Positions 23,588-40,014 of a stretch of DNA of 57,021 bases are shown here, in pieces (the stretch's first letter is position 1; every line of letters begins with the position of its first letter). The stretch comes from Gemmatimonadota bacterium (GTDB lineage: Bacteria; Gemmatimonadota; Gemmatimonadetes; Gemmatimonadales; Gemmatimonadaceae), in contig JARIFA010000009.1 in NCBI GenBank assembly GCA_031127075.1, positions 1-57,021 of the forward strand, read 5' to 3'. The position numbers were made by a program, and so were the translations under genes. The notes below the pieces were generated by a model, which was not told where the DNA came from, did no database searches, and worked only from the letters and a program-made list of their open reading frames with translations.

Positions 23588-24379
23588 TCAGACGGCGACG
23601 GAACGGGTGGCACAGCAGCGGAGCAGGGCATCGATGAGGCCCGCGTCATCGTGGCTCGCCGCCACCGCGTCCACGGGGAGACCGCAGTCGCGCGCCGCCG
23701 CAGCGGTCACGGGCCCGATGCAGACGATGAGCGGCCGGGTGACGGGATCGAGGTCGGCCACCGCGATCCCCGCGGCGGTGAGCCCGTCGACGACGTGGCG
23801 GACGGTGGACCCGCTGGTGAAGGTGATCGCGTCGACGTGCCCGTCGCGCAGGATCTCCGCGACGCCGAGCGAGCCGGCGTCGGAGACGGTCCGGTACGCC
23901 ACCGGCGCGACGACGGTCGCGCCGCGCGCGGCGAGCGCGTCGATGAGCGCTGGACCCGCGAGATCCCCGTGCGGCCACAGCACGCGGTCCCCCGCGGTGA
24001 CCGGGAGTTCGCGGCCGAGCGCGTCAGCCACCGCCTGCGAGGGGGTGAAGGCGACGGCGAGGCCGGCGGCGCGCAGCGCGACGGCGGTCGAAGTCCCCAC
24101 CGCGGCGACCCGCAGCGTCTCGGGCCACGTCGCGTCGGGTCCGCGCGCCGCGAGGATCGCGTGCACGGCGTTCGCGCTCGTGCAGACCAGCCAGTCGATC
24201 TCCTCGAGGCGCTCGAGTGCGGCCGTGAGCGGCTGCGGATCCTCCGGCGGCAGGATACGGATCGCCGGCGCGGCGATCGGCGTGGCCCCGAGGGCGCGCA
24301 ACGCGTCGAGCAGCGCGGCGCCCTGCGCGGCGGCGCGCGTCACGACGATGCAGCGGCCCTCGAGCATCCGCTCAGGCAT
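23588..24379 (-). CDS. hemD: Uroporphyrinogen-III synthase
   Basis: A 263-residue protein of the poorly conserved HemD family, which closes and inverts ring D of hydroxymethylbilane to give uroporphyrinogen III. The sequence has the two-lobed Rossmann-like pattern: G-R-C-I-V-V-T-R at the start, D-W-L-V-C-T-S-A-N-A-V in the first lobe, and D-A-I-T-F-T-S-G-S-T-V and P-L-I-V-C-I-G-P-V-T-A in the second. Position directly after hemC, overlapping its stop by eight bases, supports the call. A second ATG four codons in is an alternative start. Confidence 0.92.
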   Translation of the reverse strand: MPERMLEGRCIVVTRAAAQGAALLDALRALGATPIAAPAIRILPPEDPQPLTAALERLEEIDWLVCTSANAVHAILAARGPDATWPETLRVAAVGTSTAVALRAAGLAVAFTPSQAVADALGRELPVTAGDRVLWPHGDLAGPALIDALAARGATVVAPVAYRTVSDAGSLGVAEILRDGHVDAITFTSGSTVRHVVDGLTAAGIAVADLDPVTRPLIVCIGPVTAAAARDCGLPVDAVAASHDDAGLIDALLRCCATRSVAV

Positions 24380-25316
24380 GCGAGGTCCCTGCGGCGAGCG
24401 CTTCGGCGAGCAGCGTCGCGCCGCCGGAGCCGACGAGCGCATCGGCGGTCGCGCGACCGATCGCGATGGCGTCATCGACCGCACCAGCGCGGTGCACGCG
24501 CACCAGCCGCCCATCCGGCGCGCCGACGAGCGCGGTCATCGTGAGCGTGTCGCCGGTGATGGTCGCGAACCCGGCGAGCGGCGCGTTGCACCCGGCGCCC
24601 ATCGCGGCGAGGAAGGCGCGTTCCGCCTCCGCGCACCGACGGCTCGGGAGATGGTCAAGGGCGGCACAGAGCGCCTGGGCCTCCGTGTCCTCCGCGTGCG
24701 TCTCCACGGCGAGGATCCCCTGCGCGACGGCGGGGAGCATGCGGTCGGGGTCGAGGTACTCGGTGACCACGCCGTCCCATCCCAGTCGCGCGAGCCCCGC
24801 CGCGGCGAGGACGATCGCGTCGTAGTCGCCACGATCGAGCTTGGCGAGACGCGTGTCGACGTTGCCGCGGATGTCGAGACAGACGAGGTCGGGGCGCAAT
24901 GCCTTCAGCTGGCAGGCGCGCCGCGGGCTGCTCGTCCCCACGCGGGCCCCGTGCGGGAGCGCGGTGAGCGGCCCTGCCTTCGAGATCAGGGCGTCCCTCG
25001 GGTCAGCGCGCTCGGTGTAGGCGGCGATGGTGAAGGCGTCGCCCAAGGTGGACGGGAGATCCTTCGCCGAATGCACCGCGAGCCGGATACGGCGTGCCCG
25101 GAGTGCTTCTTCGATCTCCGCGACGAAGAGCGAGTTGCGCCCGATCGCGGCGAGGGGGCGATCCTGGATCTCATCGCCCCGCGTGCTGATGCGCTCGAGG
25201 GTGATGGCGAGTCCCGGGCGCTCGGCGAGGAGCCGGTCCCGGATGTGGTTCGACTGCCAGAGCGCGAGCTGACTCGCGCGGGTCCCGATCACGAACGTGC
25301 CGTCTGTGGTCACCAT
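24372..25316 (-). CDS. hemC: Porphobilinogen deaminase (hydroxymethylbilane synthase)
   Basis: A 314-residue enzyme that links four porphobilinogens into hydroxymethylbilane. It begins F-V-I-G-T-R-A-S-Q-L-A-L-W-Q, has H-S-A-K-D-L-P in the active site, R-R-A-C-Q-L, and the dipyrromethane-cofactor Cys in M-G-A-G-C-N-A-P-L-A. The start at 25316 follows GGAGGTGG and is where family similarity starts. It is the first gene of hemC-D-B-L and is read away from the phytochrome-like gene; a promoter-like element lies about 100 bases upstream. Confidence 0.96.
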   Translation of the reverse strand: MVTTDGTFVIGTRASQLALWQSNHIRDRLLAERPGLAITLERISTRGDEIQDRPLAAIGRNSLFVAEIEEALRARRIRLAVHSAKDLPSTLGDAFTIAAYTERADPRDALISKAGPLTALPHGARVGTSSPRRACQLKALRPDLVCLDIRGNVDTRLAKLDRGDYDAIVLAAAGLARLGWDGVVTEYLDPDRMLPAVAQGILAVETHAEDTEAQALCAALDHLPSRRCAEAERAFLAAMGAGCNAPLAGFATITGDTLTMTALVGAPDGRLVRVHRAGAVDDAIAIGRATADALVGSGGATLLAEALAAGTSHA

Positions 25317-25415
25317 CCACCTCCACCCAGCAGGGCGGACGTCCCGGGACCTCGGCGCCCGGGGGGGTGCGCCCTGTGCGTCAGCCATCAAGCCCCAAGG
25401 GGGGCCTCCGGGCCG

Positions 25416-25444
25416 AAGATACGGCCCCACTGGCGATTTGTCAC
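25416..25444 (-). promoter_or_regulatory. Probable sigma-70-type promoter of hemC-D-B-L
   Basis: Read on the minus strand: GTGACA (25444-25439), 17 bases, TATCTT (25421-25416). The expected transcript start is near 25409, giving a leader of about 90 bases before hemC. A perfect 18-base palindrome sits ten bases upstream of the -35 box. Confidence 0.5.
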
Positions 25445-25454
25445 GACCTCCTGT

Positions 25455-25492
25455 CGTCAGGGAACCCTGACGGGTCGGTCCAAATTCGGACC
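25455..25492. promoter_or_regulatory. Two dyads in the hemC / phytochrome-like divergent gap
   Basis: CGTCAGGG-AA-CCCTGACG (25455-25472) is a perfect palindrome; GGTCC-AAATTC-GGACC (25477-25481 with 25488-25492) follows four bases later. They lie between the hemC promoter and a TATATA (25526-25531) that may be the -10 box for the phytochrome-like gene. They do not match the PpsR, FNR or LexA consensus. Reading them as operators is inference. Confidence 0.55.
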
Positions 25493-25588: not shown

Positions 25589-27766
25589 ATGCCTCGCGCC
25601 GAACGTCCCCCCGTCGGATCGGCTCACACGTCGCCGTCGACCATCGTGCATCATCCCGAGCGGATGGTGCAGGCGCACGGCGTGCTCCTCGTCGTCGCGG
25701 AGCCCCACGCACAGGTGATGCAAATCAGCGCGAACGCGCCGCTGCATTTCGGGTGGTCGATCGATACCATCGTCGGGCAGGGCATCGACCGCTTCGGGAC
25801 GGAGCTCGCGCACGCGGTACGGCAATGGACCGAGGCGGGCTCGCTCACCCTCGCCATCCCCCGGCGCGTCCGACTCACCACGGCGACCGGGATCACCACC
25901 GCACTCGTCACGATGCATCGCCCCGGCACGGGGAGCGTGCTCGTCGAGCTCGAGGACCTCCGGAAGACACCGCCGAAGCGCACGCCGCCGCTCACGGCAC
26001 GGCTCACCGATCTCGTCGCCCGGCTCAGCGCCGCGCATTCCATCACCGCGCTCGCTGACCTCGTCGTCACCGAACTCCGCGAGCTCACGGGATTCGATCG
26101 CGTCGTGATGCAGCGCTGGGACGTCGCGGGCCACGCGGAAGTGATCGCCGAGGCGCGCCGCCGCACGTTGGTGCCACATCTGCATCGGCGCGTCCCGGCG
26201 CACGCGGTCCACGCGGCGACGCGCGCGCATCAGCTGCGCCACCGGACGCATCTCGCGGTGGACCTCCACGCCGATCCCGTCGCGATGTATCCCGCCGCGG
26301 CGCCGGAGGGCCGGTCGACCGATCTCGGCGCGGCCGCCTTGCTCGCGCTCCCCCCGGCAGAGCGCGCGCAGCTCGTCACCGATGGCGTTGGGGCGCTCTT
26401 CGAGGTCTCCCTGTTGCACGAGGGCCGCGTCTGGGGGCTCCTCCGCTGCACGCACGGGAGCGCTCGCTACCTGACGGTCGAGGTCCGCGCGGCGATCGAA
26501 CTCCTCGCCGAGGTCGTCTCCACCCGCATCTCGGCGCTCGAACACTACGCGGAGGCGCAGGCGGAGGTGCTCGTGCGCCGCCTCGAACATCGCCTCATCG
26601 AGGCCACGTCGGCCGACGGCGACTGGCAGCGGGCGCTCTTCGAGACGCCGCGGCAGCTGCTGCAGCCGCTCGGTGCGACCGGTGCCGCACTGCGCTTCGA
26701 CGGTGAGATCCACACCACCGGCGATGCCCCCGCCGTCGTCGACCTCCAACGCCTCTTCGCCCATCTCGACACGCTGCCGATGGCAGGGGTCTTCGCCAGC
26801 GCCGCGATCGGGAAGGAGCATCCGCCCCTCGCCGGGATGTCATGCGCCGCCGCCGGTGTCCTCGCCGTGCGCATCGGGGCGGCCCGCGGGGAATACCTCG
26901 CCTGGTTCCGGCGCGAGCAACCGCACGACGTCATCTGGAGCGGCCCAGGGCCCGCCGGGCGATCGGGGACGGCGCCCACCGCCGACCCCACCTGGCGCGA
27001 GCACGTGCGCGAGACCGCGCTGCCCTGGCGGATGCGGGAGTGCGCGATCGCGAAGGCGATCGGCGCGTCGGTGGCGGACATCGTCACGCAGCTCCGCTCC
27101 GTCCGGGTGCTCATCGCCGAACGTCAACTGCGGAAGATGCACGGCGCGGTCGAAGCGATGGACGAACCGTGCGTCGTCACCGACGCCGACGGCGACATCC
27201 TCCTGATCAACTCCGCCGTCGGGCGGCTCATCGGTGGGCCGCATCGGCAACTCGAGACGCTGGACGATCTCGCCGCGGCCTTCACCGATGCGGAGGGGAC
27301 CGCCGCGATGCTGGCGACCCTGCTGGTGGACCGTCGCCCCTGGCGCGGCGAGGTCCGCCTCACCCCGCGCGGGCACGACGCCGGCACGCCGGTCGCGGTG
27401 CGCGCCGATCCGATCCCCGGGGTCGACGGCGGGCTCCTCGGCGTCGTCGTGATGCTCACCGACCTCAGCGAGCGACACGAAGCGGAGGTCGCGCGTGATC
27501 GGTTGCAGCGCCTGATCCTCGCCGCGCAGCGTCCGGGCGGTGCACCCGGTGACGCTCCACCGGCCCCGCCGACGGTGCAGGCGCTCGTCTCCGCGATCTG
27601 GGCGAATGCCGGCGTCGCGGTGAGCGAGATCGCCGACAGCGCCGATGCCGCCTCTATCGCGCCGCTGCTGCAGGAGGTCGAGGCCGCCACCGAGCACGCG
27701 GTCCGACTCTCGGCGATCCTCGGGCGCTTCACACTGGATCCGGGTCCGACCCCCGACGGCGAGTAG
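25589..27766 (+). CDS. Bacteriophytochrome-like PAS-GAF-PHY-PAS protein without bilin-binding residues
   Basis: A 725-residue protein with the photosensory core of bacteriophytochromes. PAS is about 19-125 (V-Q-A-H-G-V-L-L, Q-I-S-A-N-A), GAF about 140-315 (L-T-G-F-D-R-V-V, E-V-I-A-E-A-R-R, V-W-G-L-L-R-C-T-H), PHY about 330-505 (G-E-Y-L-A-W-F-R-R-E) and a further PAS about 515-640. There is no histidine-kinase domain. The N-terminal chromophore Cys is absent (no Cys before residue 287). The PASDIP motif is PAHAVH (203-208), losing the Asp. The pyrrole-water His is Glu258, and PRxSF in the PHY tongue is APTAD. Architecture equals Rhodopseudomonas BphP1 and Bradyrhizobium BphP, which act on PpsR. 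It therefore may be a light-blind PpsR partner or sense another ligand (inference). It is divergent from hemC and convergent on hemY (6-base gap). Confidence 0.85.
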   Translation: MPRAERPPVGSAHTSPSTIVHHPERMVQAHGVLLVVAEPHAQVMQISANAPLHFGWSIDTIVGQGIDRFGTELAHAVRQWTEAGSLTLAIPRRVRLTTATGITTALVTMHRPGTGSVLVELEDLRKTPPKRTPPLTARLTDLVARLSAAHSITALADLVVTELRELTGFDRVVMQRWDVAGHAEVIAEARRRTLVPHLHRRVPAHAVHAATRAHQLRHRTHLAVDLHADPVAMYPAAAPEGRSTDLGAAALLALPPAERAQLVTDGVGALFEVSLLHEGRVWGLLRCTHGSARYLTVEVRAAIELLAEVVSTRISALEHYAEAQAEVLVRRLEHRLIEATSADGDWQRALFETPRQLLQPLGATGAALRFDGEIHTTGDAPAVVDLQRLFAHLDTLPMAGVFASAAIGKEHPPLAGMSCAAAGVLAVRIGAARGEYLAWFRREQPHDVIWSGPGPAGRSGTAPTADPTWREHVRETALPWRMRECAIAKAIGASVADIVTQLRSVRVLIAERQLRKMHGAVEAMDEPCVVTDADGDILLINSAVGRLIGGPHRQLETLDDLAAAFTDAEGTAAMLATLLVDRRPWRGEVRLTPRGHDAGTPVAVRADPIPGVDGGLLGVVVMLTDLSERHEAEVARDRLQRLILAAQRPGGAPGDAPPAPPTVQALVSAIWANAGVAVSEIADSADAASIAPLLQEVEAATEHAVRLSAILGRFTLDPGPTPDGE

Positions 27767-27772
27767 CCGCGG

Positions 27773-29182
27773 TCAGACCGTGAGCGGCATCCCGTGCGGG
27801 GTGCCGCGTCGTCCGCCGCTCGTCACGCCGCGCTCCTGCACGATCCGCATCGCGAGGTGCTGCCCCTGCGCGAGGCAGTCGCCGAGCGACACGCCGCCCC
27901 GCCACTGCCCACCCAGATAAAGCCCGGGATGCTCCGACTCGATGCGGAGCGCGGCGCCGACCACGCGCTCGTGGCCGAGCGCGTACTGCGGGATCGCCTG
28001 CGGCCAGATCTGATGCGCCACGAGCGTCGGGGCGCCGCGCACGCCGAGCAGCGCCTGCAGGTCCGCGAGCACGCGCGGCAGGACGGCGTCCGTCGACATC
28101 CGGCCGATCTCCGGTGCGCGCTGGCCACCGAGGAAGCAGGTGATGAGGACCTGCCCGTCCGGCGCGCGCCCCGGGAAGAGCGAGGAGGAGAAGATCGCCC
28201 CGAGGAGGGTGCGGCCCTCCACGGCAGGGCAGAGCATCCCGAAGCCGTCGAGCGGATGTGCGACGGCGTCGCGCGGAAAGCCGAGCGCCAACGTCGCGAC
28301 GGGCGGATGTTCGACGCGCTCGATCGGCTGCAGCGCCTGACGGACCTCCCACGGCAGATCAATCGCGTGGAGTGCGTGCGCGGGACCGGCGTAACAGACC
28401 GCATCGGCGGTGAGCCGCGACTCGGCGCCGTCCGCGTCGACGATGGTGACGTGCCAGCCGTCCTCGGACGGCTGCACCGCGGTCACGCGCGTACGCAACC
28501 GGATGCGGCCGCGGAGCGCTTCAGCCATCGCCTTCGGCAGGGTGCCGAGTCCTTCGCGGAAGCTCGTGATGCCGCGGTGCCGCACGACGCCGGCGCGTGC
28601 GCGCGCCTCCCGGAAGCCGCCCAGGAGCACGGAGCCGTGGCGCCGCTCCGCGTGGAAGAGCATCGGCATCGCGTGGCGCGCCGAGAGACGGTCCGGGTCG
28701 CCGGCATAGATCCCCGAGACGAACGGGGCGACGAGATAGGTGAGCACCTCGGCGCCGAGGCGTCGACGCACGAGAGACGCGATCGATTCGTCCTCCGGAT
28801 CACGCACCGGCGTCACCCAGGGCTCGCGGAGGAGGCGCCACTTGGCGCCGCGGGAGAGCGCGCGTGAGGTGAGGAGACTCGCCGGGCCCGACGGCAGCGC
28901 CACCGGCGCCCCGTCGCGGACGATGAACCGACGCTTCGCCGTCGGCGACGGGAGCACGCGGTCGCCCGCCAGACCGAGGCGCGTGATGAGCGCCTCAAGG
29001 GTCGGCGTGGCGCTCAACGAGGTCGGTCCGGATTCGACGAGGAAGCCGTCCACCCGACGGGTCGTGACCACGCCCCCCACACGGGCGCTGGCCTCGAGCA
29101 CTGTCACGTCGACGCCCTGGTCACGGAGTTCGAGCGCGGCGCTCAACCCCGTCACCCCGGCCCCGATCACGACGACGCGCAT
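27773..29182 (-). CDS. hemY: Protoporphyrinogen oxidase, HemY/PPOX type
   Basis: A 469-residue FAD enzyme of the oxygen-dependent PPOX family, which oxidises protoporphyrinogen IX to protoporphyrin IX. It starts V-V-V-I-G-A-G-V-T-G-L-S-A-A-L-E-L, followed by V-L-E-A-S-A-R-V-G-G-V. It also has V-E-S-G-P-T-S-L, A-P-F-V-S-G-I-Y-A-G-D-P and a C-terminal FAD contact P-G-L-Y-L-G-G-Q-W-R-G-G-V-S. It is the last gene of the bchG-to-hemY operon, four bases after hemF. The flavoprotein type, not the HemG flavodoxin or HemJ type, is clear from sequence. It delivers protoporphyrin IX at the branch to magnesium chelatase. Confidence 0.94.
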   Translation of the reverse strand: MRVVVIGAGVTGLSAALELRDQGVDVTVLEASARVGGVVTTRRVDGFLVESGPTSLSATPTLEALITRLGLAGDRVLPSPTAKRRFIVRDGAPVALPSGPASLLTSRALSRGAKWRLLREPWVTPVRDPEDESIASLVRRRLGAEVLTYLVAPFVSGIYAGDPDRLSARHAMPMLFHAERRHGSVLLGGFREARARAGVVRHRGITSFREGLGTLPKAMAEALRGRIRLRTRVTAVQPSEDGWHVTIVDADGAESRLTADAVCYAGPAHALHAIDLPWEVRQALQPIERVEHPPVATLALGFPRDAVAHPLDGFGMLCPAVEGRTLLGAIFSSSLFPGRAPDGQVLITCFLGGQRAPEIGRMSTDAVLPRVLADLQALLGVRGAPTLVAHQIWPQAIPQYALGHERVVGAALRIESEHPGLYLGGQWRGGVSLGDCLAQGQHLAMRIVQERGVTSGGRRGTPHGMPLTV

Positions 29183-36814: not shown

Positions 36815-37728
36815 GCGAGGCTCCGGAGCGCCACCGCGGCGACCATCATCCCCGAGACATAGAACGGGACGCCGACGGCGGAGAGGAAGAGTGCGCGCTC
36901 GCGCGGCGCGGCGAGGAACCGGGCCATCAGGCCGAGTTGCACTGCCACGAGGGCGGTGATGCCGATCGGCGCGCCCGTCGCGCCCCAAGCGCGGAGGAGA
37001 CCGATGACGACGAGTTGCGGGACGAGCATCACGACGCAGAGCACCCACGCGGCGCGCGTCGGCCCGAGCGTCGCGGGGAGGGAACGGATCCCCATCCGAC
37101 GATCGCCGTCGATCGCCTTGAAGTCGTTGAGGGTCAGGATGCCGTGCGCGCCGAGCGAGTAGAGCGCGGCGATCGCGAGGACGCGTCCATCGGGGACGAG
37201 GCCGCCGAGCATCACGACGGCGCCGGTCACCCACGCGAGGCCTTCATAGGTGATGCCGACCGCGGCATTGCCGATCCATCCGTTCTGTTTGAATCGGAGC
37301 GGCGGCGCGGAGTAGGCCCACGCGAAGGCGAGGGCGATCCCTACGGCGAGCATCCCGCTCGCCCCGAGGGGAATGGCCGCCGCGAGCGAGAGCAGTGTCC
37401 AGACGATCGCGATGCGCAGGCCCCAGGTCCCCGGCATCCGGCCGGAGGGAATGGGGCGGTGCGGCTCGTTGATCGCATCGACGTGGCGATCGAACCAGTC
37501 GTTCGCGGCCTGGCTCGTCGCGCAGACGAGCGGTCCGGTGATCAGCACGCCGAGGGCGACGGTGCCGAGTCGGTCACGGACCGGCAGCCCGGTGGAGACG
37601 ACGCCGCAGGCGAAGGCCCACATCGGCGGGAACCAGGTGACGGGCTTGAGCAGCTCGACGATTGTCCAGAGGCTCGGCGCACCCCGGACCGAGGTCGACG
37701 GTGCATTGACACCCAAAAGTGTCGTCAT
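36811..37728 (-). CDS. bchG: Bacteriochlorophyll synthase
   Basis: A 305-residue UbiA-family prenyltransferase with about nine membrane helices that esterifies bacteriochlorophyllide a with geranylgeranyl diphosphate. The first Asp motif region is A-A-N-D-W-F-D-R-H-V-D-A-I-N-E-P-H-R-P-I-P. The second is L-N-D-F-K-A-I-D-G-D. L-L-K-P-V-T-W-F-P-P-M-W-A-F at the N-terminus is nearly diagnostic for BchG. It begins 55 bases after ppsR and is the first gene of the nine-gene operon. Its start codon lies inside a perfect PpsR-type palindrome, so repression by PpsR is expected. Confidence 0.96.
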   Translation of the reverse strand: MTTLLGVNAPSTSVRGAPSLWTIVELLKPVTWFPPMWAFACGVVSTGLPVRDRLGTVALGVLITGPLVCATSQAANDWFDRHVDAINEPHRPIPSGRMPGTWGLRIAIVWTLLSLAAAIPLGASGMLAVGIALAFAWAYSAPPLRFKQNGWIGNAAVGITYEGLAWVTGAVVMLGGLVPDGRVLAIAALYSLGAHGILTLNDFKAIDGDRRMGIRSLPATLGPTRAAWVLCVVMLVPQLVVIGLLRAWGATGAPIGITALVAVQLGLMARFLAAPRERALFLSAVGVPFYVSGMMVAAVALRSLA

Positions 37729-37738
37729 AACCTGACAC
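37719..37738. promoter_or_regulatory. PpsR/CrtJ-type operator over the bchG start codon
   Basis: GTGTC, ten bases, GACAC: a perfect match to the TGT-N12-ACA palindrome used by PpsR/CrtJ, with five-base arms. The bchG ATG (37728-37726) lies inside the spacer. Another GACAC half site occurs at 37708-37712. The ppsR stop is only 45 bases away, so this site sits between the regulator gene and the operon it should control. Confidence 0.8.
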
Positions 37739-37782: not shown

Positions 37783-39198
37783 TCAGATGGCTTCGGCGGT
37801 GTCCGTGTCGCCGCCGGACAACCCGTGGCGGCGCAGCTTCACGTACAGCGTCTGCCGCGACAGGCCGAGGACTTCGGCGGCGGTCGTGCGGTTGTCGCCG
37901 GTGAGCTCGAGCGCGGCTTCGATGAAGTGCCGCTCGACGAGGTCGGTCGTGTCCTTCACGAGCGTCGGGAGCGAGACGCGGCCGACGAGCGCGGTGAGGT
38001 CTTCGACCGCCTTGGTGAGGTCGCGCGCGCCGTGCGGCACGGTGGCCACGCGCCGACCGACATCCCGCAGGATGAAGCCGATGCCGCCGTCGGCGAGGGT
38101 CACCGCGGAGAGCTCGATCTCCGAGCTCAGGCCCAAGTCACCACGGACGCTGCTCGCGGCGACGCGGACGACGCCGTGCTTCTTGAGCGTGGAGAGGAAG
38201 ACCTGGAGATCGGCGCCGGGTCGGCCGACCCAGTTGCCCAGGGAGCGGGCCTTCGCCTGCTCCTCGCTCGCGAGCTGCGCGAGGTCGAGGAAGGCGCGGT
38301 TGGCATAGACGATGGCGCCGTCGGCGTCGGTGATGACGCAGGCATCCGGGGCCATCTGCACGAGGGCGAGCACCTGCTCGCGCGTCGCGCTCACGCCCGC
38401 CGGCGCCGCGAAGCGCGAGAGGCGGATGAGAAGGAGCGTGAGGTTCTCCTGCCGGAAGCAGGAGGCCGAGGCGAGCGACTCACCACGGCCGTCGGCGAGC
38501 GTGATGCGCACGTCACCCGCGTGCCCGGTGGTGCGGGCCGCGGCGAGGAGATCCTCCATCGCACGGGCGGAGCCGACGGCGATGCCAAGAGGGAAACTCC
38601 GCCCCACGAGCTTCTCGGCGGGGAGGTCGAAGAGGCGTGTCGCGGCGTTCGAGGCGTCAACCACCTTCATCGTGTCGGCATCGACGACGATGATGGCGTC
38701 GGTCGAGAGCTGGAAGAGGAGGCGGTAGCGCGTCTCGACGTGCCGCAGCTTCCAATAGTCGCGCTCCATCGCTTGCTGCGTGTCGACGAGGCGCTGCTGC
38801 AGCGTCGAGATCGCGCGGAGGTCGCGCCCGACGGCGACGACCGAGCCATCCTCGGCGCGGACCGCGTTGTAGGCGACCGGGATGTCGGCGCCGGCCCGTG
38901 AGGGATGATTCACCTGTCGGCGGCGGGTCGTCCCCGCCGTCGTTGCCTCACGCAGCATCTGCTCGATCTTCCCGCGGGACTCCGGGGTGACGGTGTCGAC
39001 CCAGGGCGTCCCGACCCAGCTCTCCGCGCCATCGACCGGGGGTTCCGCCCCGCTGAACTCGACGTGTCGGATGATGCCGCCACGATCCACGACCAGCGCC
39101 ACCTCGCTGGTGGCGGTGATCAGCGTCGCGGCCCAGTCCGGTGCCAGACCGGAGAGGGGGGCGCGCGACGCGTTCGAGGCGGAGTGACCGGAAGTCAT
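37783..39198 (-). CDS. ppsR: PpsR/CrtJ photosynthesis transcription repressor
   Basis: A 471-residue regulator with an N-terminal PAS-like domain (about 20-130), a Gln-rich linker (T-L-Q-Q-R-L-V-D-T-Q-Q-A-M), two further PAS domains (about 155-265 and 275-385) and a C-terminal Fis-type helix-turn-helix. The HTH has T-A-A-E-V-L-G-L-S-R-Q-T-L-Y-V-K-L-R-R-H-G-L. This is the PpsR layout. It represses bch, crt and puc genes through TGT-N12-ACA sites, two of which are in this window. The HTH has no Cys; the only Cys are in A-S-C-F-R-Q and D-A-C-V-I-T-D, so the redox Cys of the Rhodobacter protein's HTH is missing. It follows aerR by 28 bases. Confidence 0.95.
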   Translation of the reverse strand: MTSGHSASNASRAPLSGLAPDWAATLITATSEVALVVDRGGIIRHVEFSGAEPPVDGAESWVGTPWVDTVTPESRGKIEQMLREATTAGTTRRRQVNHPSRAGADIPVAYNAVRAEDGSVVAVGRDLRAISTLQQRLVDTQQAMERDYWKLRHVETRYRLLFQLSTDAIIVVDADTMKVVDASNAATRLFDLPAEKLVGRSFPLGIAVGSARAMEDLLAAARTTGHAGDVRITLADGRGESLASASCFRQENLTLLLIRLSRFAAPAGVSATREQVLALVQMAPDACVITDADGAIVYANRAFLDLAQLASEEQAKARSLGNWVGRPGADLQVFLSTLKKHGVVRVAASSVRGDLGLSSEIELSAVTLADGGIGFILRDVGRRVATVPHGARDLTKAVEDLTALVGRVSLPTLVKDTTDLVERHFIEAALELTGDNRTTAAEVLGLSRQTLYVKLRRHGLSGGDTDTAEAI

Positions 39199-39226: not shown

Positions 39227-39931
39227 TCAACCGAGGCTCAGCTCGGAGACGCCCCGAAGACGTCGGGCCACGACCACCGCGGAATCCGCGTCGGTCGCGA
39301 AGCCATCCGCCCCCAGTTGTTCGACAAGCGAGGAATCGGTACCGAAAAGATGGCCACCGACGAGCACGCGGATGTCCGCGTTGCGAGACACCTGCCTGAC
39401 ACGTCGGATGTCGCTGCGGAGTCCTGGCACGTACTGCGAGCACGAAACCGAGACACCGAGGCAATCATAATCGGCTTTCCTAACCATGTCCAACAATATA
39501 TCTGAACTATAGATGGTCATGAGGTGGACATCCCACCCATCCCGAATGAAATGTTCGGCTACAATCAGCGTTCCGAGGGTGTGCTGTTCCCCCGGGGCAC
39601 AGGTGAGGAGCATCCGGCCCATCGACCCGAACTGCACGCGGTCGGAGAGGAAGAGGGGGCTGATCGCACGGACGAGGCGCTGGATGTGCCCGGATGCAAT
39701 GGTCACTTCATAGAAGGAGCAGTCGTCCGATTCCCACCGTTCGCCGAGGATGCGGGCGGCGGGGGCGAAGACCTGCTCGAGGATCGCCGATGGGGACATG
39801 CCATCGCGCAGGAGGGCACGGACGAATACGCCGGGCGCCGACTCATCCGCCGACAAGATGGTGTCGGTGAAGTCGATGACGACCCGCGCGGTCTCCGGGC
39901 GTTCTTCCCGGGCAAGACCAGAAGAGGACAT
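39227..39931 (-). CDS. aerR: AerR-like cobalamin-binding antirepressor
   Basis: A 234-residue protein with a helical N-terminal part (R-A-L-L-R-D-G-M-S-P-S-A-I-L, A-A-R-I-L-G-E-R-W) and a B12-binding Rossmann domain. The domain has A-P-G-E-Q-H-T-L-G (the D/E-x-H-x-x-G motif, His being the lower cobalt ligand), V-S-V-S-C-S and L-V-G-G-H-L-F-G. AerR in Rhodobacter capsulatus binds B12 after light exposure and blocks the repressor CrtJ, so with ppsR next door this is very likely a light-responsive pair. The gene has a visibly lower G+C stretch around 39440-39560. It is divergent from bchF with a shared regulatory gap holding a PpsR-type site. Confidence 0.9.
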   Translation of the reverse strand: MSSSGLAREERPETARVVIDFTDTILSADESAPGVFVRALLRDGMSPSAILEQVFAPAARILGERWESDDCSFYEVTIASGHIQRLVRAISPLFLSDRVQFGSMGRMLLTCAPGEQHTLGTLIVAEHFIRDGWDVHLMTIYSSDILLDMVRKADYDCLGVSVSCSQYVPGLRSDIRRVRQVSRNADIRVLVGGHLFGTDSSLVEQLGADGFATDADSAVVVARRLRGVSELSLG

Positions 39932-39994: not shown

Positions 39995-40014
39995 GTGTCT
40001 GGCTGTCAAGACAC
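39995..40014. promoter_or_regulatory. PpsR/CrtJ-type operator between aerR and bchF
   Basis: GTGTC-TGGCTGTCAA-GACAC, the same five-base arms and ten-base spacing as at bchG. Its right half also holds TGTC-AA-GACA. Read on the minus strand the spacer includes TTGACA (40009-40004), a possible -35 box of aerR, though no convincing -10 follows. The site lies 17 bases upstream of the bchF -35 box and could control both directions. Confidence 0.8.

Follow-up and report, generated by a model that had tools for sequence, protein, structure and literature searches.

A BphP1-type phytochrome without a bilin pocket in the tetrapyrrole gene cluster of a Gemmatimonadota bacterium

The stretch analysed here, called the window below, comprises 57,021 nucleotides of contig JARIFA010000009.1 from the Gemmatimonadota assembly GCA_031127075.1, and carries a phytochrome gene among the tetrapyrrole genes of a photosynthesis gene cluster (Table 1). 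The gene was confirmed as a real open reading frame of 725 codons, to whose product Pfam assigned PAS_2 (residues 25-122), GAF (153-313), PHY (330-501, 103.8 bits) and PAS_4 (522-631) domains and no kinase domain. The top match in the PDB was RpBphP1 (4gw9, 359 bits, residues 22-632), the best match other than RpBphP1 scoring 181 bits. The PAS-GAF-PHY architecture and fold are present, followed by a C-terminal PAS9 domain and a two-helix HOS part without kinase, as in the BphP1-type antagonists of PpsR. The initial annotation, made from the DNA letters, had described a kinase-less PAS-GAF-PHY-PAS protein of BphP1 type, lying between hemC and hemY in one cluster with ppsR, aerR and tspO, and both descriptions were borne out. 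With gene names assigned from Pfam families, hemL, hemB, hemD and hemC lie on one side of the phytochrome gene and hemY, hemF, hemE, hemA, tspO, bchP, ppsR and aerR on the other, with bch and puh genes beyond aerR.

Residues of the bilin pocket were compared over 87 aligned rows representing 81 unique genes from Gemmatimonadota and from a wider scan limited to the best 80 of 317 relatives, of which L065, L066 and L106 were excluded for stops within the match; the two scan patterns cover Tyr178 (Y, H or Q allowed) and leave the PASDIP, His, Arg and tongue positions uncovered. Genes in which the pocket residues are gone are called lost (5 genes) and those that keep them intact (76 genes), and the functional roles of the residues are those of DrBphP. 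The window protein lacks the bilin-binding Cys, reads PAHAVH for PASDIP, carries Glu258 in place of the pyrrole-water His and has APTAD at the PRRSF region of the PHY tongue, so that PRxSF is gone. The alignment confirmed each of these changes, all of which the initial annotation had listed, and added others, namely Tyr175 to Gln, Tyr215 to Gln, Arg221 to His and His288 to Thr, besides those at residues 252-261 (Table 1). A missed upstream start that would supply the Cys was ruled out, as the frame closes seven codons upstream (732 codons at most).

In the numbering of the intact orthologue of genome G129, Tyr178, Asp209, Tyr218, Arg224, Arg256, Ser259, His262, Tyr265 and His292 are kept in 76/76 intact genes and absent from all five lost species, which form one clade; this distribution of Asp, Arg, His and Tyr excludes chance change of the pocket. 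Arg473, Ser475 and Phe476 of PRRSF follow the same division in every row, Arg474 being Gln in one intact row, and the Cys is found in every intact row except L067, whose contig begins after that position. His293 (His289 in the window protein) is kept in all rows and is the sole tested bilin-site residue retained. The two pocket Arg (positions 221 and 252 of the window protein) are the ones that clamp the bilin propionates. When positions invariant in at least 97% of the 76 intact genes were scored, those gone from all lost species amounted to 19 of 51 in GAF and to 2 of 10 each in PAS and the tongue; the PHY core had lost 1 of its 16, HOS 1 of 4 and the C-terminal PAS none of 4. Judged by alignment, the bilin site is erased: neither the Cys nor the Asp remains, nor do the two clamp Arg, the two pocket His, three Tyr or PRxSF. 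The proposal that the whole pocket had changed within a conserved fold was upheld, and the output is conserved as well.

Relatives were collected by a phylum search (395 genomes, sampled evenly from a larger set) and a genus search (17 genomes). Five species have the lost type: the window genome (G000), G249 (86% identical to the window protein), and G028, G171 and G385 (58-59%), the two lost subclades being only 57-59% identical to each other. Their assemblies measure 1.8-2.3 Mb, and the frame is open in the four species with a complete gene and in the visible part of the fifth (G385, whose contig ends inside the gene). The intact type occurs in G129, G087, G183, G156, G167 and G093; in G183 (L051 9415-11585) the pocket is intact and the PHY region carries a frameshift, either an assembly error or a young pseudogene. 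In a tree of 24 chosen rows, in which the program flagged the odd letter make-up of the window row, the five lost species formed one clade (100/100) grouped with G129 and G087 (100/100), and the window protein fell inside the BphP1-type group, indicating descent from it. Tree and synteny agree, which rules out horizontal replacement of the gene. Although relatives at about 50% identity (G087 and G129, 50-52%) keep the pocket residues, four further species share the loss, and the orthologue survey that had been proposed as a check for recent decay came out against it: a loss common to five species, low ratios of non-synonymous to synonymous substitution rates (dN/dS) and a conserved output rule decay out. 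Across the genomes compared, the loss extends beyond the window species and is not of recent date. Record titles of three lost genomes (K_Offshore_40m, M_DeepCast_50m and LaPlata) point to standing water, which we take to mean lakes or a reservoir.

Heme oxygenase has gone with the pocket. Among 20 genomes searched for heme oxygenase (PF01126), nine of which gave a match, it was found in none of the five lost genomes as against all six with an intact-pocket orthologue, the genome-wide absence being weaker for the window assembly (81.5% complete) and G385 (88%). The remark that no heme oxygenase gene lies nearby therefore held, and the absence extends genome-wide to the window assembly and the four other lost genomes. 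In five of the six intact genomes the heme oxygenase gene adjoins the phytochrome gene, and in G183 it lies on another contig. The order in G087 and G129 is hemC, phytochrome, heme oxygenase, hemY, hemF; in the window, G249, G028 and G171 it is hemC, phytochrome, hemY with the heme oxygenase slot empty, and since this slot was sequenced through in all four, an assembly gap was ruled out there. DUF2470 was found in none of eight genomes, the five lost ones among them, and the search did not extend to IsdG-type enzymes. One genome runs against the heme oxygenase rule, namely G351 (85% complete), which has a phytochrome-like match outside the orthologue set and no PF01126.

Divergence is unevenly spread over the protein. 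Distances to four proteobacterial homologues, taken as the ratio of four lost to two intact genus members, were 1.61 for PAS+GAF and 1.30 for the whole PHY, compared with 1.06 for the PHY core, 1.03 for PAS9 and 1.00 for HOS, indicating that PAS-GAF and the tongue, but not HOS, have come to diverge faster. GAF dN relative to PHY-PAS9-HOS was 2.08 (window-G249) and 1.22 (G028-G171) in lost pairs versus 0.09-1.04 in 49 close intact pairs, which share members and are not independent; for PAS+GAF the ratios overlap (2.15 and 1.46 versus 0.50-1.99). By the NG86 method, which is rough at this GC content, dN/dS inside the lost subclades was 0.11-0.15 for the whole gene and 0.14-0.26 for GAF; between the two lost subclades it was 0.39 with dS near saturation, and 0.45 for the intact pair G129-G087. 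These values indicate purifying selection on the window phytochrome gene. HOS is identical at 58/58 positions between the window and G249, at 45/58 between the window and G028, and at 39/58 between the intact G129 and G087. Because of this pattern of domain distances, dN/dS and HOS identity, the input is best described as loosened or remodelled and the output as held.

A structure model of the window protein reached a mean predicted local distance difference test score (pLDDT) of 80.8. PAS and GAF were predicted with good confidence over most of their length, the GAF fold being kept in the model, and two long C-terminal helices (661-682 and 687-716) were predicted. Comparison with Pr-like and Pfr-like structures was given no weight in assigning a state, several Pr entries lying at a root-mean-square deviation of 2.5-3.0, Pfr entries at 3.7-4.4 and other Pr entries at 3.1-4.6, with the tongue tip disordered in the model. 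With no bilin site, no heme oxygenase and a shortened tongue whose tip is of low pLDDT, light control is gone by all sequence criteria.

Table 1. Features of the phytochrome locus, in window coordinates
Feature	Position	Strand	Remarks
Chromophore-less BphP1-type phytochrome gene, PAS-GAF-PHY-PAS-HOS	25589..27766	+	725 aa; Pfam, PDB match, alignment
N-terminal PAS domain, residues 25-122	25661..25954	+	Pfam; bilin-binding Cys just ahead of the domain missing
GAF region of the rate tests, residues 139-313 (Pfam 153-313), former bilin pocket	26003..26527	+	
PASDIP changed to PAHAVH, residues 203-208	26195..26212	+	
Residues 252-261, intact LRSxSPxHxQY replaced: Arg252 to Leu, Ser255 to Pro, His258 to Glu, Tyr261 to Gln	26342..26371	+	
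Acidic Glu272	26402..26404	+	E/D in 5/5 lost species, Val in intact BphP1 types
PHY domain, residues 330-501	26576..27091	+	Pfam
Shortened tongue without PRxSF, residues 446-473	26924..27007	+	tip 456-464 pLDDT <50
Cys485, on helix between PHY and C-terminal PAS	27041..27043	+	5/5 lost species, 0/76 intact homologues
C-terminal PAS (PAS9-like), residues 517-631	27137..27481	+	Pfam, PDB match
HOS-like two-helix output, residues 661-716, probable PpsR-binding part by analogy	27569..27736	+	model helices; RpBphP1 HOS (PMC6899989)
hemC, divergent neighbour	24372..25430	-	
Invariant TGTCACG, probable hemC -35 on the minus strand	25439..25445	.	8/8 genomes
Palindrome CGTCAGGGAACCCTGACG, PpsR-like, between hemC and phytochrome gene	25455..25472	.	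YGTC-N10-GACR
hemY-type oxidoreductase, starting where intact relatives carry heme oxygenase	27773..29182	-	
ppsR, probable partner by analogy	37783..39198	-	
aerR, B12-binding domains	39227..39931	-	

Between hemC and the phytochrome gene a YGTC-N10-GACR palindrome stands at the aligned place in 8/8 genomes (5 lost, 3 intact) and is a candidate PpsR site. The exact motif TGT-N12-ACA, with six matches in the window against 2.3 expected, has none in this gap; two of the six lie at 37720-37737, next to ppsR, and at 39996-40013, between aerR and the following bch gene.

Of the 20 genomes searched, PpsR itself was found in all five lost ones, in all six with an intact-pocket orthologue and in G396, the remaining eight giving no match. 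Within the lost clade it is 80-96% identical to the window PpsR and keeps its helix-turn-helix motif (cut off in G385). AerR is much less conserved in the genus than PpsR (45-68% versus 77-95% identity), and its EQHxxG His is kept in the aligned genus rows except that of G396, a partial match. In the genus, strong BchB matches and a phytochrome occur in the same eight genomes, the other nine having neither; G395 has a BchB match of 27% only, and acsF was not found in G028. G167 (L053), G156 (L052) and G093 (L054) carry an intact phytochrome, an adjacent heme oxygenase and PpsR without a strong BchB or any AcsF match, apparently a BphP1-PpsR pair outside phototrophy; the order in G167 is heme oxygenase, phytochrome, ppsR, aerR.

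Five genomes of the same genus without the photosynthesis cluster (G004, G126, G189, G206 and G073, 92-100% complete) gave no match to hemC and none to full hemE, G073 holding only a 51-residue hemE piece at 88% identity; heme synthesis and the photosynthesis cluster seem to be gained and lost together. Of nine non-phototrophic genus members in which hemC was sought as a control for the palindrome, eight gave no match and the ninth is G397. The window genome also encodes a short BLUF-domain protein (L136, G000:C66:31534-31809), not found in seven other genus genomes searched, which is a possible blue-light input.

The reading we favour, at a probability of about 0.52, is that a light-driven antagonist of PpsR became a chromophore-free PpsR partner, constitutive at a level set by its promoter. 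By analogy with RpBphP1, the ancestor would have bound biliverdin from the adjacent heme oxygenase and, in far-red light, relieved the photosynthesis genes of repression by PpsR. In the common ancestor of the clade the slot would have been emptied of its heme oxygenase gene, and bilin pocket and tongue would have disappeared, with the C-terminal PAS-HOS output and PpsR kept. The window protein would then bind or titrate PpsR through HOS independently of light, at a dose set by the hemC/phytochrome promoter region with its conserved PpsR-like palindrome. What is observed is the joint loss of pocket and heme oxygenase, the synteny, the monophyly of the lost species, the purifying selection, the conserved output and the presence of PpsR. 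By analogy HOS probably still binds PpsR, and the effect on PpsR may be antagonistic and constitutive. Constant antagonism of PpsR, one of two options raised in the initial annotation, fits, provided that the presumed binding to PpsR occurs.

Several observations weigh against this reading. As HOS of the genus is just 17-31% identical to that of Bradyrhizobium and Rhodopseudomonas, the contact with PpsR is extrapolated through domain homology only. The GAF dN/dS of 0.14-0.26 shows that this domain is not simply free of constraint, which it might have been in a purely constitutive protein. In the window YGTC-N10-GACR shows no enrichment, with 8 occurrences against 13.6 expected. In G397 (87% complete; L135 2409-2627), where neither PpsR nor BchB was found, hemC adjoins hemY with no phytochrome between and a perfect palindrome TGTCAGGAGACTCTGACA lies in the gap, so the palindrome may serve hemC alone. 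G396, finally, has ppsR without a phytochrome.

A switch to another signal, which the initial annotation had suggested, is the main rival to the chromophore-free partner. PAS-GAF would have been remodelled for a non-bilin small molecule, or Cys485 would act as a thiol redox switch, the state being relayed to PpsR by HOS; we regard this as doubtful yet as deserving serious attention. The remaining constraint on GAF speaks weakly for it, as do new residues common to all five lost species and not to intact ones (A206, A253, P255, A257, R259, A260, F271 and E/D272) together with the fixed Cys485, and PAS and GAF are confidently modelled over most of their length. Far-red light hardly reaches depths of 40-50 m in water, so a far-red input would be useless at the 40 m and 50 m of two record titles. 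A phytochrome of R. palustris, of the RpBphP4 type, reportedly turned from light to redox sensing (said to be the finding of Vuillet in 2007). The two lost subclades nevertheless disagree at pocket positions (Q/H175, Q/L215, H or Q/F221, E/V258, Q/R261 and T/Q288), unlike one conserved ligand site, and with only five species in two subclades the fixation of Cys485 may be chance. It is tentatively conceivable that a metabolite or thiol redox, instead of far-red light, now adjusts PpsR through a pocket rebuilt around A206, P255, R259 and E/D272 plus Cys485, the light input having been lost clade-wide.

Other explanations fare worse. If the tetrapyrrole cluster suggests a ligand, as the initial annotation proposed, the former pocket might bind heme, protoporphyrin or a chlorophyll precursor and report pathway flux to PpsR, and the position between hemC and hemY and the GAF fold kept in the model would suit such a sensor. 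That slot was inherited from the bilin-type relatives G087 and G129, however, and because they share it, it is uninformative about the ligand; both Arg on the propionate side are gone, residue 272 is acidic, and the window protein has a His-rich stretch that the sister lost subclade does not conserve. No new heme-type pocket His is both fixed in and private to the lost clade, since H199 and H277, fixed in the five lost species, also occur in 2 and 5 of the 76 intact genes, of the same genus or other intact types. A tetrapyrrole ligand is therefore not supported, and we consider it improbable. A relict on its way out, with no regulatory role and kept by accident or because it sits between hem genes, is unlikely, though less so. 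Pocket, heme oxygenase and tongue are gone and PAS-GAF evolves fast, and loss does occur, with hemC beside hemY in G397 and a frameshifted intact-type copy in G183; yet open frames in four complete genes and the visible part of a fifth, in assemblies of 1.8-2.3 Mb, a dN/dS of 0.11-0.15 and the 58/58 HOS identity with G249 speak against it. Least probable of all is that the protein still senses light through a bilin bound non-covalently at an unusual site. Phytochromes without the Cys can bind bilin non-covalently and the fold is kept in the model, but nothing is left of the Asp, the two His, the two Arg, three Tyr or PRxSF, PF01126 is found in 0/5 lost genomes and DUF2470 in 0/8 genomes.

The clade offers a natural experiment, a photoreceptor that lost its light input and whose output is still fully constrained. 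With five lost species, near relatives of the intact type and the same gene slot in both, one can ask what a phytochrome scaffold does without its pigment, and whether HOS alone can hold off PpsR. The case bears on the rewiring of horizontally acquired photosynthesis clusters, and for far-red optogenetics it would add a natural, light-independent counterpart to the BphP1-PpsR2 pair.

Among known systems, phytochromes of the RpBphP4 type likewise gave up the chromophore and kept a role; they are histidine kinases found in few strains, whereas the window type lacks a histidine kinase output and is a kinase-less PpsR-partner type with clade-wide distribution, a remodelled pocket and a lost heme oxygenase. 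Apo forms of RpBphP2 and RpBphP3 were reportedly described by Fixen in 2014; these proteins, whose structures with chromophore are known, keep the bilin-binding site and are kinases, unlike the window protein. For R. palustris BphP2/BphP3, PMC6879726 states that light-quality sensing is not required in low light. In the same phylum, the phototroph Gemmatimonas groenlandica has a BphP described as a histidine kinase with BphO, both being reported absent from G. phototrophica (PMC7844134), and by the accession numbers the phytochrome of G. groenlandica adjoins heme oxygenase. The photosynthesis cluster of G. phototrophica is described as under minimal transcriptional regulation in PMC11406998. 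The word phytochrome occurs nowhere in the main text of PMC11406998, PMC8547001, PMC10581226 or PMC12817894, and in the open-licence literature on redox or chromophore-less phytochromes and on phototrophic Gemmatimonadota we found no description of a BphP1-type PpsR partner that had lost both pocket and heme oxygenase throughout a clade.

The closest comparison is with RpBphP1 and the BphP of photosynthetic Bradyrhizobium, both antagonists of PpsR. In RpBphP1, according to PMC6899989, far-red light frees the HOS helices, which follow PAS9, to bind PpsR2. RpBphP1 binds biliverdin and switches with far-red light, whereas the window protein lacks every tested bilin-site residue except His289 and is without a heme oxygenase. 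The orthologues of G087 and G129 occupy the same slot between hemC and hemY in the same cluster at 50-52% identity, but unlike the window protein they keep the Cys, DIP, His, Arg, Tyr and PRRSF as well as the heme oxygenase gene. Phytochromes working without pigment are known from R. palustris, and to these the clade adds a kinase-less phytochrome of the PpsR-partner type that has lost pocket and heme oxygenase in all five species.

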